From assembly GCA_913009315.1 (NCBI GenBank), contig CAJVZA010000006.1:1-44290 (forward strand): a stretch of DNA of 44,290 bases. Direction: 5' to 3'. Below, one piece after another: positions 36,970 to 43,820 of the stretch. The position numbers and the translations under genes are program-made. The notes under the pieces are model-generated. The model saw only the letters and a program-made list of their open reading frames with translations, was not told the origin of the DNA and searched no databases. The DNA is from an uncultured Hippea sp. GTDB taxonomy: Bacteria; Campylobacterota_A; Desulfurellia; JAADFJ01. Numbering within the stretch: position 1 is the stretch's first letter; each line of letters begins with the position of its first letter.

Positions 36970-37641
36970 CTACAATGGTTTTGTTATCTCCTCAGTAGTT
37001 AGTTTTAGATATTTTTTTGTTAATATCCACTCAAAATCTGTTTCTATGTAGATTTTTGTTAAACTTGTCAGATTTTTGAAAAAATTCATTGTTGAAGCTG
37101 ATATAATATTAGAGCAAAACTGGAGAGCCCAGCTAATGAGGTGCTTATTTAGAAATTCTTCCTGTGTTTTCAACAAAACATATAAGAGTGAATTGTTATT
37201 CTTAGATAGAGCCAAATACGCCTCATTGGCTAAATAACTCATAAAAGTTAGCTCCAAAGCGATGTGGTCATCAGGAATTTTACCAATTAGTATGGGAGCC
37301 AAATTCCATTTTATGTATTCCTGCCGGACTGCAACTGCAGGTGCACCCATTACAGTTCCGTCACCTAAATAGAAAGAAGCAAAAGGAGGGGCAGGATGTT
37401 GCCCTGGCCCCTCGAATAAACGAGTATACTCAATATTGGTTTCTTCTAAAAAAACTTCCCAATTGTTAATTCCTTTTAAGTAGTTTTGAAGGGATATTAA
37501 ACTATCCTTCCAGGGTTTATCCTGCCTTTCCAGTTTTATTATTGGTTCAACTTTCTCAAGAGTTAGGGGATAAGTATAAATCCCACCTAACAAGCGATAA
37601 AGTATTGCCCTTTGTGCCAGTGTTTCTGCCAATTGTTTCAT
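36970..37641 (-). CDS. TorD/DmsD-like molybdoenzyme maturation chaperone
   Basis: All-helical; EYTRLFEGPGQHPAPPFASFYLGDGTVMG; overlaps catalytic subunit gene. Confidence 0.88.
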   Translation of the reverse strand: MKQLAETLAQRAILYRLLGGIYTYPLTLEKVEPIIKLERQDKPWKDSLISLQNYLKGINNWEVFLEETNIEYTRLFEGPGQHPAPPFASFYLGDGTVMGAPAVAVRQEYIKWNLAPILIGKIPDDHIALELTFMSYLANEAYLALSKNNNSLLYVLLKTQEEFLNKHLISWALQFCSNIISASTMNFFKNLTSLTKIYIETDFEWILTKKYLKLTTEEITKPL

Positions 37642-40466
37642 ACTTTGCTAACTCGTACTAACATATCGGCGTATGCGGGTTCACCCATGATGGGACTTAA
37701 CGCTTCAGGATCTACAAGTTCATTATGATTAGGCGTGTATTTCCTATTTGCATAGATTGCCCCAAGTCCTTTACTAAAACGACCACCGGTGGCAAAACCC
37801 ATTTTGATAACCCCTGGTCTGATTGTTTCTGCTACAAATGCTTTGCTGATAACATGTTTGCCTAAAGGATTTTCCACCTTGACAAGATCACCCATTTTAA
37901 TACCAAGTTCTCCGGCATCCTTACTATTAATTAAAATAGTACCCACACTCCAGGTACCTGCCCGTATTTTTTCCTTTTGCATCTTATACCGGGTCGCAGG
38001 ATCCACTTTGTCAATGTTCCACTGCTTACGAGCGGGATTCACATCGAGCATTCCGTATTCAAATTCTTCGTTCATAGGGACCCAGGTTCCCGCTACCGAC
38101 ACTTCAGAAAGCCATGGTACCATTTGCGTCGCAGACATAGTCTGATGCACACGTCCGCAAATAAGCTGAAACGGGAAGTCCTTTGCATATTTGGCATAAG
38201 AAGGATTATTCGGATTCCACTTGGTTTCGAACCAGTAAAAAGTTTCGGGATAACGTTTCCAGCCTAATGGCTTGATGCTCATAGGTATTTCACCGGCTTC
38301 CTCAATTAGCTTGTTGTATTTATTATATTTGTTAAATACAAATTCAACCTTTTTAGAACCGGTTTTTAGTATGCCTCCACCGTCAGGCTGAAAACGACGC
38401 CAGGACATTGGCCAGTCAGCAACGCCATAATGTTCTCTTAACCATTTAACAGTAAGCGGTTCACCCTGGATTACTTTCTTTTTGTGGTTAATTTTGACAC
38501 TGCCGGCTTCTAATGAATCCGGTGTGCCGAGCAATTTGTAACCTTCGGGTAATTTTGGGTAAGGAAGCGGCTTACCAACATTAGGTTTGCCCGGTGCAGG
38601 TAATAAAGCTTCATTCCAAAAATCCTCTTCGGTTTTATATTTTGCCCAAAAGTCTTCGGCTTTAATATCTGTATCACCGTGTTTTACCAGTGCCTTCGCT
38701 AGTCCATTCATAATCTCAAACGGCGTCTTAGATTCGTGAAGCGGTTTGATTGCCTGATCGCGCAAATAAAGCAGGGGGTGAGGAGGATAAATATCGGAAA
38801 GACTCATACGCTCGGCATAACTGGCTTCAGGCAAGATAACATCAGCGTAAAGTCCGGTTTCAAGAAACGGTGTGTCAATATAGACAACAAGGTCCACTTT
38901 ATAATTATTTTTTTCATCCCTGGCAGTCAATGCTTCCTGCCATTTGTACGTTGCAGAACCTGTGATTACAGGATTTCCGGTTCGGATAATATAAGCTTTG
39001 ATCGGATATTTATGACCACGAAACGGGCCATAACGGAGTGATACACCTTCCATAAAGCGGCGCGGATAATCACCTACAACATCATCCCATCCAGCCGGCC
39101 AATCGCCAAAACGATCCATGTTCAGTTCTTCTTGCGTTCCTTCAACTTCCACTCCGTTTACAACACGCTTAACCTTGCGCTTGAGAAATTGTTTACCCTT
39201 TGCCGAGCCGCCTTTACTTGCTTTGGTCAATTCTGTGTCAATCGCACCACCGGGAATATCCATATTACCGGTGATTACGTTAAGAGCTGTTCCTAATATA
39301 GAAGCAACGGAACCGTTATAATGATGCCCGGGGCTTTGCATACCCCAGATAAGAGAAGCCGGTTTCGTGATACCAAAGAGATGCGATACCTCGGCAATTT
39401 TCTCTTTAGCAAGCCCGGTTCGGGCAGCAGCCCACTCTAGTGAATAATACTTGTGTTCATTACCCTGATCAATCTTATTCCACCAACTCTTAAATTCTGT
39501 CAAAAAATCATCCCAACCCTCACTATACTCTTTAAATGACCAGTCTATATATTGGTGAGATGGATCGTTATCGTTGTGGTTCTCGAGTATATAGCGGAGC
39601 ATTGCAGCAAAAAGGTCAGCGTCAGTACCGGCTTTAGGTGCCAGCCACATATCGGCACGGGAGGCAGTATTGGTATGACATGGGTCTATAACAATGACTT
39701 TGCAGTCGTTTTCTACCTGTGCGGCAACAGTACCCCGTGACTCGTAGTTTATACGGGTGGCGACAAAAGGATTCCATCCGTTATAAATAATCAGTTTGTT
39801 TTTGTAAGTAAAATCCTTCTTAAGGCTGCCGTCTGGTTGGCGCACTAAAACAGGACGCATTAGATCCGGCTCTATGCGCTTGCCGCCTAACATCAATTTA
39901 GGTCCGTGGCGACGCGGTGTGTCACAGATAGAACCATGCTCTACACTGTTTGGAGTACCGAATGCAAAAAACAGACGCCAATAACAGTCCCGATCAGTAA
40001 CATCGCCTGCATCCATGATTACAGATTCAGGACCATATTCTTTTTTGTATTTAACCAGACGCTTGGCAATATAATCCATAGCTTCTTCCCAGGAAACCTT
40101 TTTGAATTTATTTTCACCTCTTACACCTACACGTATCATAGGACTTTTGATTCGGTAAGGTGAATATATCATCTGGATCCCAGAGTTTCCTTTAGCACAT
40201 AACGTTCCGTCATTGTAAGCACAGTGTTCGTTTCCATAGATTTTAAAGACACGATTATTTTTCACTACCATTTCCAATCCGCATTCGGACGGACACATCA
40301 CATCGGCTGTGTAAACTGTTTTTAATTTACCTATCTCTGCTGCATATGTTTTAGCTTCGGCTGCGGACAGGGGACGAAAAAGGGAGCTTAAAGAATCCCA
40401 CATCAATATACCTGCTGTGGCACCGCCGGAAAGTTTTATAAATTTTCTTCGCGATAGATTTCCCAT
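37638..40466 (-). CDS. Molybdopterin oxidoreductase catalytic subunit, CISM (PsrA/PhsA/ArrA-like), Tat-exported
   Basis: Tat motif SRRKFIKLSGG; ADVMCPSECGLEMVVKNNRVFKIYGNEHCAYNDGTLCAKG; molybdopterin-binding and dinucleotide-binding domains. Confidence 0.9.
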   Translation of the reverse strand: MGNLSRRKFIKLSGGATAGILMWDSLSSLFRPLSAAEAKTYAAEIGKLKTVYTADVMCPSECGLEMVVKNNRVFKIYGNEHCAYNDGTLCAKGNSGIQMIYSPYRIKSPMIRVGVRGENKFKKVSWEEAMDYIAKRLVKYKKEYGPESVIMDAGDVTDRDCYWRLFFAFGTPNSVEHGSICDTPRRHGPKLMLGGKRIEPDLMRPVLVRQPDGSLKKDFTYKNKLIIYNGWNPFVATRINYESRGTVAAQVENDCKVIVIDPCHTNTASRADMWLAPKAGTDADLFAAMLRYILENHNDNDPSHQYIDWSFKEYSEGWDDFLTEFKSWWNKIDQGNEHKYYSLEWAAARTGLAKEKIAEVSHLFGITKPASLIWGMQSPGHHYNGSVASILGTALNVITGNMDIPGGAIDTELTKASKGGSAKGKQFLKRKVKRVVNGVEVEGTQEELNMDRFGDWPAGWDDVVGDYPRRFMEGVSLRYGPFRGHKYPIKAYIIRTGNPVITGSATYKWQEALTARDEKNNYKVDLVVYIDTPFLETGLYADVILPEASYAERMSLSDIYPPHPLLYLRDQAIKPLHESKTPFEIMNGLAKALVKHGDTDIKAEDFWAKYKTEEDFWNEALLPAPGKPNVGKPLPYPKLPEGYKLLGTPDSLEAGSVKINHKKKVIQGEPLTVKWLREHYGVADWPMSWRRFQPDGGGILKTGSKKVEFVFNKYNKYNKLIEEAGEIPMSIKPLGWKRYPETFYWFETKWNPNNPSYAKYAKDFPFQLICGRVHQTMSATQMVPWLSEVSVAGTWVPMNEEFEYGMLDVNPARKQWNIDKVDPATRYKMQKEKIRAGTWSVGTILINSKDAGELGIKMGDLVKVENPLGKHVISKAFVAETIRPGVIKMGFATGGRFSKGLGAIYANRKYTPNHNELVDPEALSPIMGEPAYADMLVRVSKV

Positions 40467-40471
40467 TTTCT

Positions 40472-41047
40472 TTAGACCTCCTCTATTTTTTTACGATCGT
40501 CAAGAATATAATAATCCGATGGTTTAGTGTTGAATTCGGGTTTTCGCACCTTAATTCGGTCTTTGTTTTCTGCTATAAGCTTAGAGACCTTGCTTTGGGG
40601 ATCGTTGATGTCACCTATATATCTTGCTTTGCCCATGCAGGCTCTGACGCAGGCCGGAAGCTTATTTTGTTTCAATAAATGTAAACAAAAATCACATTTA
40701 TCGGCTTTCTTGTCTTTCCACACATATCGTGCATCGTAGGGGCATGCAGTTACACAGTAGTCACAGCCTATGCATTTTTCTTTATCTATAAGAACGAGGC
40801 CATCCTTCCGCTTAAAGGTGGCACCCGGAACAGGACAAGCTTTAACGCAAGGCGGATTGTCACACTGATTACAAAGTACAGGAAGAAAACGCCACGTGAC
40901 GTCCGGATATCTACCATCCTGGCGGAGTTTTACCGTAGATCGGAAATTACCAATAGGCACATCGTTTTCTTGTTTGCAAGCAACTTGACAGGCATAACAA
41001 CCGACGCACTTCCTCAGATCAATAACAAAAACATATTTTTTTGACAT
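40472..41047 (-). CDS. 4Fe-4S ferredoxin electron transfer subunit (PsrB/DmsB-like, four clusters)
   Basis: CVGCYACQVAC; CNQCDNPPCVKAC; CIGCDYCVTACPYDARY; CDFC..CVRAC. Confidence 0.95.
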   Translation of the reverse strand: MSKKYVFVIDLRKCVGCYACQVACKQENDVPIGNFRSTVKLRQDGRYPDVTWRFLPVLCNQCDNPPCVKACPVPGATFKRKDGLVLIDKEKCIGCDYCVTACPYDARYVWKDKKADKCDFCLHLLKQNKLPACVRACMGKARYIGDINDPQSKVSKLIAENKDRIKVRKPEFNTKPSDYYILDDRKKIEEV

Positions 41048-41051
41048 GATT

Positions 41052-41486
41052 TTATCTCACCTCCTTTTTGTAGGCGTCACCGGCTTTCATTTTTTTATCT
41101 CCGTACCATGGTTTATCGCCGGAACTGTGACAATTCAGACATACTTTTCGATTCACTCTGCTCAAGGCACTTGTAGGGGAAATCATTAGATTGCCGAACT
41201 TTTTTACAATGTACCACGCATCTTTGTACTTTTTACCTTTTTTGCCTTTAAGACTTTTCATTGTAGGATTTAATTCTTTAGTTGCGGTATGGCAGTGTGT
41301 GCAATCCAGTCCTACTTCTTTCGTGTGAATCTTGTGGTAGGATTTGATACTTTTTGTACCTGACATAGATTGTGCATAACCTGTTGTAATCCCAAAACCG
41401 AAAAGCCCAATGAACAAAACCAAGGTAGATAAAACAGAATAGCTTAAAATATGTTTATATCCTTTTTTAATTGTTGCCAAGTTCAT
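41052..41486 (-). CDS. Small diheme c-type cytochrome
   Basis: Signal/TM segment plus two CxxCH motifs: CTHCH and CLNCH. Confidence 0.88.
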   Translation of the reverse strand: MNLATIKKGYKHILSYSVLSTLVLFIGLFGFGITTGYAQSMSGTKSIKSYHKIHTKEVGLDCTHCHTATKELNPTMKSLKGKKGKKYKDAWYIVKKFGNLMISPTSALSRVNRKVCLNCHSSGDKPWYGDKKMKAGDAYKKEVR

Positions 41487-41669: not shown

Positions 41670-42056
41670 CTAATTTTTTCTCGACAATAAATGTTTATTT
41701 TGTACCCCCACTACACATTTCTTTTTTACTCTGATATCAAACCGCTTTTCTAACCTTTTATGGTCTTCAGTTATTATCTGGTGAGAAATGTTAGATATAG
41801 TTTGAAGAAGACTGGTAATAAATAAATCTTCACTTTTGATTAGCGAAAAGTATTTGTACCGTCCATCTTTACTCTCGTTAATCAGTCCAACATTTTTCAA
41901 CAATTTTAAGTGCTTTGAAATATTGTATTGGTTTTGCTCCAGAGAATCTACTATCTCACATACACAGACGGATTCTTCACTTAAAATAAGAAGATTAAGA
42001 ATACGCAATCGCGTTTCATCACTGAGAGCCTTAAATATTTCAATAAATTGTTCCAT
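41670..42056 (-). CDS. arsR: ArsR/SmtB family transcriptional regulator
   Basis: MEQFIEIFKALSDETRLRILNLLILSEESVCVCEIVDSLEQNQYNISKHLKLLKNVGLINESKDGRYKYFSL; CVC metal-binding motif. Confidence 0.93.
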   Translation of the reverse strand: MEQFIEIFKALSDETRLRILNLLILSEESVCVCEIVDSLEQNQYNISKHLKLLKNVGLINESKDGRYKYFSLIKSEDLFITSLLQTISNISHQIITEDHKRLEKRFDIRVKKKCVVGVQNKHLLSRKN

Positions 42057-42065
42057 ATCAATCCT

Positions 42066-42097
42066 TTGTATGCTTGCTTGCGTTACTACGCATACAA
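42066..42097 (-). promoter_or_regulatory. Candidate ArsR operator, inverted repeat TTGTATGC-N16-GCATACAA
   Basis: 8-bp perfect inverted repeat just upstream of the arsR ATG and touching the -10 box. Confidence 0.65.
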
Positions 42098-42124
42098 TAT
42101 AACAATAATAAAAAATAAAGTCAA
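42096..42124 (-). promoter_or_regulatory. Putative arsR operon promoter
   Basis: Minus strand TTGACT - 17 nt - TATATT. Confidence 0.65.
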
Positions 42125-42222
42125 GAACTTTTAATCGATACTGCCCCAAATTTTGTGTAAATGTTAAAATTTAGTAAAATTCAAGTTGTTCCCGATAGCT
42201 CAATTTCAACTTATAAAAACAC

Positions 42223-43152
42223 TCATAAAATTTTATTTATCAAACCCATCACATTTCCAAAGTGAATTTTAGCTGCCTGATGGAAGTTATACCAGCGGCT
42301 TGCGGTAAAATTTGGTTTCAGGACAATGCCTTTCTCATTTTTTTCCAACGCATCATCAATCCAGGCATCTTTTGAATATTTGGGGATTTGACCATAGTCC
42401 TTTTTCTTCAGAAAATTGCCGATAGCCTTTATCCTTTCATCATAATCTTCAGTATGGATGATTTCCCCAAAGGCATCTTTTACATCATCCCATGAAAATC
42501 CTTTTTGAGTTTTTCTTTTAAGATGGGCATAAATTTCCTTAACACATTCAAACGTTCTTTCTTTATTGTCAATGGCCTTATTGTCTAATCTATAGTCGAT
42601 CCATGGTTCCGATATAACATCCGGGGCATGTCCGGCTTCTGCATGACCGATATTGGGAACAATAGATTTAAAGACGTTATACCATGGATAGACAGAATTC
42701 CACTCTTCCCGAAGACCGGTAAAATTCTGATGAGACCATGTATCGGCAAAGGTATGCAGTGCAATGCCTATTAAATATGAGTTATTGCTATTGAGTGCCT
42801 TTGAAAGGATAGCCCTGGCATTGGCCGAATTAGGAGTAACACTAAGAGGATTGCCGACATCTTTTATTTTAACTTTGTTGTCCCCGGGCAGAAAATGAAA
42901 CGGCACATAAACATATTTCTGGACATAGGGGTCAAGTGAAACTATAGACAGAGATTGAGTCATTATGGGATAATAATAACCTCCATTTGTCTTCAGCCTT
43001 TGCGGGAAATTGATTTCTTCTCCATTGATCGAAAACTGCCTTTCATTGTTATCATCCACAAACTGAGATGCATAGGCAACTATATCGGGGTTGTTCAACT
43101 TTGTTATTTTTGCCATTGCATAAATCAAATAATAATGAAAATCCTTTTCCAT
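42223..43152 (-). CDS. DUF6765-like putative metal-dependent hydrolase (family recalled, not searched)
   Basis: MEKDFHYYLIYAMAKI..YASQFVDDN; GIALHTFADTWSHQNFTGL; GHAEAGHAPD; WYNFHQAAKIHFG; His/Asp-rich helical protein. Confidence 0.55.
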   Translation of the reverse strand: MEKDFHYYLIYAMAKITKLNNPDIVAYASQFVDDNNERQFSINGEEINFPQRLKTNGGYYYPIMTQSLSIVSLDPYVQKYVYVPFHFLPGDNKVKIKDVGNPLSVTPNSANARAILSKALNSNNSYLIGIALHTFADTWSHQNFTGLREEWNSVYPWYNVFKSIVPNIGHAEAGHAPDVISEPWIDYRLDNKAIDNKERTFECVKEIYAHLKRKTQKGFSWDDVKDAFGEIIHTEDYDERIKAIGNFLKKKDYGQIPKYSKDAWIDDALEKNEKGIVLKPNFTASRWYNFHQAAKIHFGNVMGLINKIL

Positions 43153-43172
43153 AATCTCCTCCTGCTATGAAT

Positions 43173-43820
43173 TTATGGTTGATAAATTTTTATTGCCCCT
43201 GTATTGATTCCTGCTCTAGCTATATCTTCAGGTGTAGTATTGGAAACGCTTATTGTGTTATCTAAAAAATTTCTACCCGCTTCTTTATAGCAATATCTAA
43301 CGAAAGCACTGCAATACATTGCGTGAGGATCATCGAGCGGATTAGGAAGCCATTGTTTTTTCATAATAATTGCCCACCATGTCCCGAGAAGTTCCTGAAT
43401 GGGATAAAGCACCTGTTCATCCACAAGCTGTAAGGCAGCGGCAAGGACAGTACTTTTTTCATCATCCAAAAGTCCAAAATCTATAACCGCAGCATTTTCT
43501 ACCTCGTCCCCGCACCATTTTCCAATCCAGTTTTCCTGAGCACCATTTCGAAGTTGAGGTTGAAAAAAATTTACCTGAAGATCACTTTCAAATATGTAGG
43601 GGCTTTTGGTTTTTGTGCCTCCTGGCCCCCTTAGGTCAAGCCTTAGTTCGCCAAATATAAAGCAATGCGACCAGAGAGATGCCTTTCCGTCTCCGGTTAC
43701 TGCCTCCTGAGCTTTTCTTATGGCCATGCCTATGATATCCTTTGTGCCCACAAGGCCTATCAACCCCGGTTTGAGATTACCGGTAAAGAAATTGAGTAAT
43801 TGAGAATTTAATGTATCCAT
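43173..43820 (-). CDS. Permuted NlpC/P60 papain-like (YiiX/YaeF-type) protein
   Basis: His motif LWSHCFIFGE precedes Cys motif HAMYCSAFVRYCYKEAG, the permuted order. Confidence 0.6.
   Translation of the reverse strand: MDTLNSQLLNFFTGNLKPGLIGLVGTKDIIGMAIRKAQEAVTGDGKASLWSHCFIFGELRLDLRGPGGTKTKSPYIFESDLQVNFFQPQLRNGAQENWIGKWCGDEVENAAVIDFGLLDDEKSTVLAAALQLVDEQVLYPIQELLGTWWAIIMKKQWLPNPLDDPHAMYCSAFVRYCYKEAGRNFLDNTISVSNTTPEDIARAGINTGAIKIYQP

Follow-up and report, generated by a model that had tools for sequence, protein, structure and literature searches.

Near one end of the window, by which we mean the whole stretch of DNA analysed here (an entire contig of 44,290 bases), two genes that we call A and B lie head to tail on the minus strand. 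A previous sequence-only reading had described them as two genes 20 nt apart, and indeed both reading frames are open on the minus strand and the motifs that it quoted could be located. The locus is composed as follows.

41670 to 42149, minus strand: ArsR/SmtB-type regulator gene, next downstream of the pair (PF01022, E = 4.4e-12; NF033788, E = 5.1e-22)
42223 to 43152, minus strand: gene B, ATG reading frame of 309 aa; DUF6765, a predicted cytosolic zinc enzyme of the phospholipase C (PLC)/P1-nuclease type
43153 to 43172, minus strand: A-B intergenic gap of 20 nt, holding the SD-like AGGAGGAG ahead of gene B
43173 to 43820, minus strand: gene A, ATG reading frame of 215 aa; permuted NlpC/P60 (YaeF/YiiX-like) predicted cysteine hydrolase

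As read from the sequence, the ATG of gene A is preceded by an SD-like GGAGGA and that of gene B by AGGAGGAG; both are good ribosome-binding sites of the SD-like GGAGG type. A promoter and terminator scan at the locus returned sites no commoner than in shuffled sequence. Further downstream (37638-41486, minus strand), we observed a putative operon for a cytochrome, a ferredoxin-type protein and a molybdopterin oxidoreductase, and the ArsR/SmtB-type gene (41670-42149) lies between this operon and the A-B pair; its product probably controls the molybdo-oxidoreductase operon rather than the pair. The other genes in the window resemble those for respiration, secretion and housekeeping, with no sensor or signal-making partner and no defence neighbour near the pair, where the window ends 470 nt upstream of A together with the contig. 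The host genome (1.74 Mb, ~88% complete, 96 contigs) holds A once and DUF6765 three times, the two other DUF6765 copies being located on small contigs with no adjoining A. In agreement with the sequence-only reading, no recognisable signal peptide was found at the N-terminus of A or B, and therefore both proteins most likely act inside the cell.

Although protein A falls below the cut-off for every Pfam, NCBIfam and PADLOC family, its conservation marks it as a real protein family. When one genome was scanned for each species, ten homologues with 49-73% identity were returned, in contigs labelled Deltaproteobacteria, Nitrospirae, Verrucomicrobia and Elusimicrobia, and 50 columns are invariant in the alignment of these ten genome homologues; one of the loci counted, L012 (6001-6619), is a broken copy split by a frameshift. 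From its motifs alone, A had been taken for a permuted NlpC/P60 protein resembling YiiX/YaeF, with a predicted structure named as the check. This assignment is borne out by the structure search and by four catalytic positions. When the AF2 model of A (pLDDT 75, pTM 0.77) was compared with the PDB, only 3kw0 (Bacillus cereus BcPPNE, E 5e-6) and 2if6 (E. coli YiiX, E 2e-4) were retrieved at E<0.001, and a search of BFVD matched viral proteins named YaeF/YiiX C92 amidases. Besides, the A profile had a single, weak match among PDB sequences, which was to 3kw0 across the catalytic Cys motif (E 0.41). The motif LWSHCFIFGE carries His52 and HAMYCSAFVRY carries Cys170, His thus preceding Cys. The catalytic residues of BcPPNE are Cys154, His49, Glu64 and Tyr127 (PMC3142127), and their predicted counterparts in A are encoded as follows.

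43665 to 43667, minus strand: His52 codon, predicted catalytic base (cf. BcPPNE His49), invariant including the phage homologues
43587 to 43589, minus strand: Glu78 codon, predicted third catalytic residue (cf. BcPPNE Glu64), invariant
43404 to 43406, minus strand: Tyr139 codon, predicted NlpC/P60 signature tyrosine (cf. BcPPNE Tyr127), invariant in the ten genome rows
43311 to 43313, minus strand: Cys170 codon, predicted nucleophile (cf. BcPPNE Cys154), invariant

Protein A thus displays the permuted order, i.e. His before Cys, an acidic third residue and a Tyr, the latter in all genome homologues; both phage homologues (L022, L023) have Phe at position 139. We infer the equivalence of Glu78 and Tyr139 to BcPPNE Glu64 and Tyr127 from order and conservation. 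Matches to Peptidase_C92 (PF05708) stayed below the gathering threshold, with 2 of 12 A-family members matching at E<=0.1 (best 0.042). Judged by its predicted fold and site, A is a permuted NlpC/P60 enzyme that stands outside PF05708 as modelled. We rejected a canonical NlpC/P60 or endolysin identity, as the respective matches were sub-threshold only and the catalytic order is permuted, and we judged a PHROG match to 'enoyl-CoA hydratase' (E 4e-4, 46 residues) to be spurious because the predicted fold of A is unambiguous. Of note, the homologue in L011 (5629-6657) has a hydrophobic N-terminal segment, so that anchoring of the enzyme in the membrane, or its export, is possible in one lineage.

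Protein B, previously called 'DUF6765-like', is in fact a full-length member of this family (PF20551, E = 1.8e-65, 222 bits against a threshold of 26.6, model positions 1-322 of 325). The alignment of 31 DUF6765 homologues contains 22 invariant columns, and H6, D33, H86, H133, D137, H141, H170 and D178 are invariant in 31/31. The motif HTFADTWSHQ corresponds to residues 133-142 of B. The residues of interest map to the following positions.

43135 to 43152, minus strand: Met1...His6 register of B, the Met1 amine and His6 being predicted zinc ligands
43054 to 43056, minus strand: Asp33, candidate metal ligand, invariant 31/31
42895 to 42897, minus strand: His86, candidate metal ligand, invariant 31/31
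42619 to 42756, minus strand: His133-x3-Asp137, His141, His170 and Asp178, candidate metal ligands, invariant 31/31

These invariant His and Asp residues may be assigned one to one to the zinc ligands of PLC/P1 enzymes. The proposal that B belongs with the zinc PLC/P1 enzymes dates from the sequence-only reading, and it found support. In its favour are the invariant ligand-type residues, the N-terminal register described below and sub-threshold matches to Zn_dep_PLPC (PF00882): 15 of the 31 DUF6765 members match this model at E<=0.1 (best 1.4e-4), with those seen scoring below the gathering threshold and window protein B absent from the matches listed. The AF2 model of B (pLDDT 81, pTM 0.87) is mostly helical and, in a fold search of the PDB, ranks zinc PLCs at positions 1 and 3 and S1 nuclease at position 22, but none of these matches is significant (E 1.3-7.6, 1.3 being the best overall). 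When DUF6765 was compared profile to profile with two proteins of the PF00882 type, the alignment was confined to the HxxxD...H motif and lacked significance, and a PDB sequence search with B yielded coiled-coil and composition-driven matches only. A literature search on DUF6765 or YLATT found no relevant paper, and to our knowledge no substrate or activity has been described for either the A family or DUF6765. On one phage contig (L129, 4180-5832), DUF6765 comes with a ~200-aa C-terminal extension of unassigned type.

The N-terminus of DUF6765 is held in a strict register. In 55 of 57 proteins from genomes, plasmids and phage contigs, the start codon lies five residues ahead of the first invariant His, a count in which the L106 row was unreadable and L108 uses GTG as start codon at this position. 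The sole readable exception, L126, is one residue longer and has Cys at position 2, which allows Met removal and thereby brings back the register. Residue 2 of the register-keeping proteins is always Q, D, E, K or N, and with such a bulky second residue the initiator Met is kept. Small residues make up 35% of DUF6765 proteins overall and their absence at residue 2 is therefore unlikely to be due to chance, even though the sequences, being related, do not count as independent. In nuclease P1, Trp1 and His6 are zinc ligands. In S1 nuclease, the mature N-terminus, which is Trp21 once the signal peptide has been removed, binds the trinuclear zinc cluster together with His and Asp side chains (PMC5201275). 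Intracellular PF00882-type proteins in the surveyed genomes start with MPGSYAH, MAGAFTH, MPGAFAH or MPASIAH, i.e. they are one residue longer and have a second residue that permits Met removal, and in exported PF00882-type proteins the likely signal peptide ends before WGPxTH. Hence, three routes (a kept Met, Met removal and signal cleavage) would all place a free amine at a distance of five residues ahead of the His. Since S1/P1 enzymes and PLC-type proteins share this spacing with DUF6765, the Met1 amine is a likely zinc ligand. We regard the register as the best evidence for placing DUF6765 with the PLC/P1 enzymes, as a putative cytosolic branch in which Met1 is a predicted zinc ligand.

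As to the relationship between the two genes, the sequence-only reading had proposed a two-gene cassette and suggested co-occurrence as a check. The pair was indeed found again in one unrelated genome (L004), where DUF6765 and A are adjacent on one strand, in the order opposite to the window and with a 64-nt gap, in the company of endonuclease/phosphatase-like, caspase C14, CBS, zinc-PLC and TIR genes. At the level of a phylum, by contrast, DUF6765 was present in 1 of 7 A-bearing genomes and in 53 of the 395 genomes as a whole, a co-occurrence that does not exceed chance. An obligate two-gene system was thus rejected, given this phylum co-occurrence and DUF6765 in only 1 of 10 A-bearing genomes. 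Other A loci feature other phosphoesterases: L005 combines a zinc PLC, A and a C11 clostripain-type peptidase; a calcineurin-type phosphoesterase (metallophosphoesterase, MPE) adjoins A in L006, L008 and L038; and in L009 an MPE is fused to A and followed by C25/CHAT-like, TPR and CHAT proteins. In L007 (4867-5907), the gene before A is disrupted by an in-frame stop and has a weak zinc-PLC match (E 0.048). About half of the A loci (L010-L013, L041, L042) have no phosphoesterase neighbour. Across the 13 A-bearing genomes, an MPE was adjacent to A in 4 cases versus 0.06 expected (P ~6e-7), and a PLC or DUF6765 gene lay within two genes of A in 3 cases (window included) versus 0.02 expected (P ~1e-6), P values that are indicative only because the families were chosen post hoc, after the neighbours had been seen, and gene numbers were approximated at one per kilobase. 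Along its length, the L038 MPE is a homologue of an L100 MPE (E ~1e-35) whose gene lies 12 nt upstream of one for DUF6765; this closes a triangle of A, MPE and DUF6765. Protein A behaves as a module that partners with different phosphoesterases (DUF6765, zinc PLC and calcineurin type).

Both families are patchy, horizontally spread and phage-borne. A occurs in 4 of 296 and 7 of 395 genomes of two phyla; it is lacking in 2 of 2 genomes of the same genus, and ~22 genomes of the same class yielded nothing more than a 41-residue fragment at the edge of a contig. Two phage contigs (L022, L023) carry A homologues of ~50% identity, at ~8.0-8.6 kb and upstream of a terminase-like gene, with an MPE-like gene ~3 kb downstream. 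From its high identity across phyla and its absence in near relatives, we conclude that A has spread horizontally. Searches of named phages and plasmids with A, and of named phages with B, gave no match. DUF6765, besides its 53 of 395 genomes, is found on plasmids and phage contigs. Plasmids of Vibrionaceae and Aeromonas (L024, L025, L026) share a conserved cassette near a recombinase gene, consisting of a ~220-aa likely lipoprotein, a ~90-aa protein and DUF6765, and two of these cassettes lie near restriction (type I) or ThiF/Mov34 genes. The ~220-aa and ~90-aa partners were rejected as equivalents of A, having no papain motif. In Desulfobacterota, we observed a recurrent cluster of a ~805-832-aa glycyl radical enzyme, a ~150-aa small protein and a ~300-aa activase, flanked by DUF6765 in L076, L079-L083, L084, L088 and L092, and by a calcineurin-type phosphoesterase in L159-L162 and L164.

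We interpret A and B as a horizontally acquired, cytosolic lipid-hydrolase module, a reading to which we assign a probability of about 0.5 that overlaps with what we grant to the defensive and metabolic readings below. Its computed basis comprises the fold and conserved site of A, the family membership and invariant ligands of B, the N-terminal register, the mobility, and the preference of A for phosphoesterase neighbours; substrate, cooperation and biological role are inferred. In such a module, A (with Cys170 as nucleophile, His52, Glu78 and Tyr139) would most likely attack a fatty-acyl ester or amide, like its characterised relatives, and B would be a PLC/P1-type zinc phosphodiesterase that keeps its initiator Met, whose amine, five residues ahead of His6, would bind zinc in place of the mature N-terminal Trp of the exported enzymes. 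Working on the inner membrane face, the two together may cleave a phospholipid or lipidated substrate at both its acyl and its phosphodiester end. Because relatives of A cleave acyl chains and PLC/P1 enzymes cleave phosphodiesters, this joint attack on both lipid ends is the simplest reading; the fact that some permuted papain relatives use peptides or lipoamino acids rather than phospholipids as substrates counts against it. Among the permuted relatives, Tox-Act1 and TseH possess phospholipase activity (PMC12994826), and the pocket of YiiX holds a fatty acid (PMC3142127). Overall, the A-B gene pair is real, conserved and mobile; the enzyme types are well supported, and their cooperation is plausible.

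The purpose of such enzymes could lie in defence or programmed cell death, the sequence-only reading having suggested a defence or toxin-type unit, although we consider this doubtful: the pair would then represent a membrane-degrading effector set that is triggered by a sensor encoded elsewhere and kills or arrests the infected cell. This would accord with the surroundings of A and DUF6765 in L004 (endonuclease/phosphatase-like, caspase C14 and TIR genes), the C11 clostripain-type peptidase in L005, and the C25/CHAT-like, TPR and CHAT proteins beside the MPE-A fusion in L009. Besides, the distant homologue L039 adjoins a WD40-repeat protein with a TIR-like N-terminus, the DUF6765 gene of L098 (3774-7414) sits between two patatins resembling, below cut-off, the CBASS cGAMP-activated phospholipase, and plasmid DUF6765 cassettes occur near type I restriction genes and ThiF/Mov34 genes. 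However, neither a sensor nor a signal synthase nor a known defence gene lies near the window pair, PADLOC returned no match at E<=1 and hence no described defence protein family, several A loci lie among housekeeping genes, and phages themselves carry both families. DUF6765 also recurs beside the glycyl-radical-enzyme clusters, which has a metabolic look.

Those clusters lead to a reading of A and B as a metabolic module for lipid salvage or remodelling, in which phospholipids or lipoamino acids would be broken down in the cytosol for carbon, phosphate or head groups. DUF6765 and the same MPE subfamily each flank the cluster in many Desulfobacterota, and enzymes of this type would free head groups and phosphate in sequence. 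Yet the glycyl radical enzyme matched no characterised equivalog at cut-off, the window is devoid of such a cluster, and both patchy spread and phage carriage would be unusual for a core pathway, so that we hold this explanation to be unlikely. Still less probable in our view is that A and B are unrelated accessory genes that became neighbours by chance in gene-dense mobile regions and have no joint function. While the genome-level co-occurrence at chance, the different gene order in the window and L004 and the frequent occurrence of DUF6765 alone would be expected under this scenario, A and DUF6765 are adjacent and on the same strand in both genomes found to have both families (gaps of 20 and 64 nt), and PLC-type proteins near A, like calcineurin-type enzymes beside it, are much commoner than expected.

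Returning to the lipid-hydrolase module, a bolder and quite tentative extension, which we think unlikely to hold in full, would make A the invariable component of a hitherto undescribed type of mobile intracellular system that attacks membranes in defence or cell death, in which a permuted NlpC/P60 acyl-hydrolase is combined with one of several interchangeable metal phosphoesterases (of the DUF6765, zinc PLC or calcineurin type, and in one case fused), and at the same time DUF6765 a cytosolic zinc PLC/P1 branch with the initiator Met as zinc ligand. If the modular pairing is true, this would be a new kind of intracellular lipid-attack unit common to bacteria and phages, and it would imply a lipid-directed function for a clade of permuted NlpC/P60 enzymes that escapes present-day family models. 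DUF6765 is common in the phylum sampled, yet without a described function; if it is a zinc enzyme that needs an unextended N-terminus, N-terminally tagged constructs should be dead.

Compared with known systems, the pair resembles the CBASS phospholipase effectors (CapV-like patatins) in being made up of intracellular, lipid-directed enzymes, and such patatins flank one DUF6765 gene (L098), but the enzyme folds differ and no nucleotidyltransferase or sensor gene was found near the window pair. With the permuted enzymes of the Tox-Act1/TseH/LRAT type, several of which are known for acyl chemistry, A has the His and Cys core in common, whereas it lacks a secretion-system link, an immunity gene and an export signal and is homologous at the superfamily level only. 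Gene B does not differ from DUF6765 (PF20551), of which it is a full-length member. Relative to the zinc PLC/S1-P1 nuclease superfamily (PF00882; S1 nuclease 5fba), DUF6765 falls under the PF00882 cut-off, produces no significant structure match and has no signal peptide, and the predicted N-terminal residue of B is a retained Met and not the Trp of S1/P1 nucleases. Nevertheless, it shares with this superfamily the H-x3-D...H motif and further invariant His and Asp residues, an N-terminus (the mature one in the superfamily) five residues ahead of the first His, and the mostly helical make-up seen in the B model. Finally, A lies under the Pfam cut-off for Peptidase_C92 (PF05708) and departs from the YaeF/YiiX-like enzymes (BcPPNE 3kw0, YiiX 2if6) through invariant motifs of its own (ESDL, NGxQENW, NP, SNTTPE) and a His-Glu spacing of ~26 residues instead of 15, but it has the His-Glu-Tyr-Cys order and the predicted fold in common with them, and BcPPNE is cytosolic, as predicted for A.
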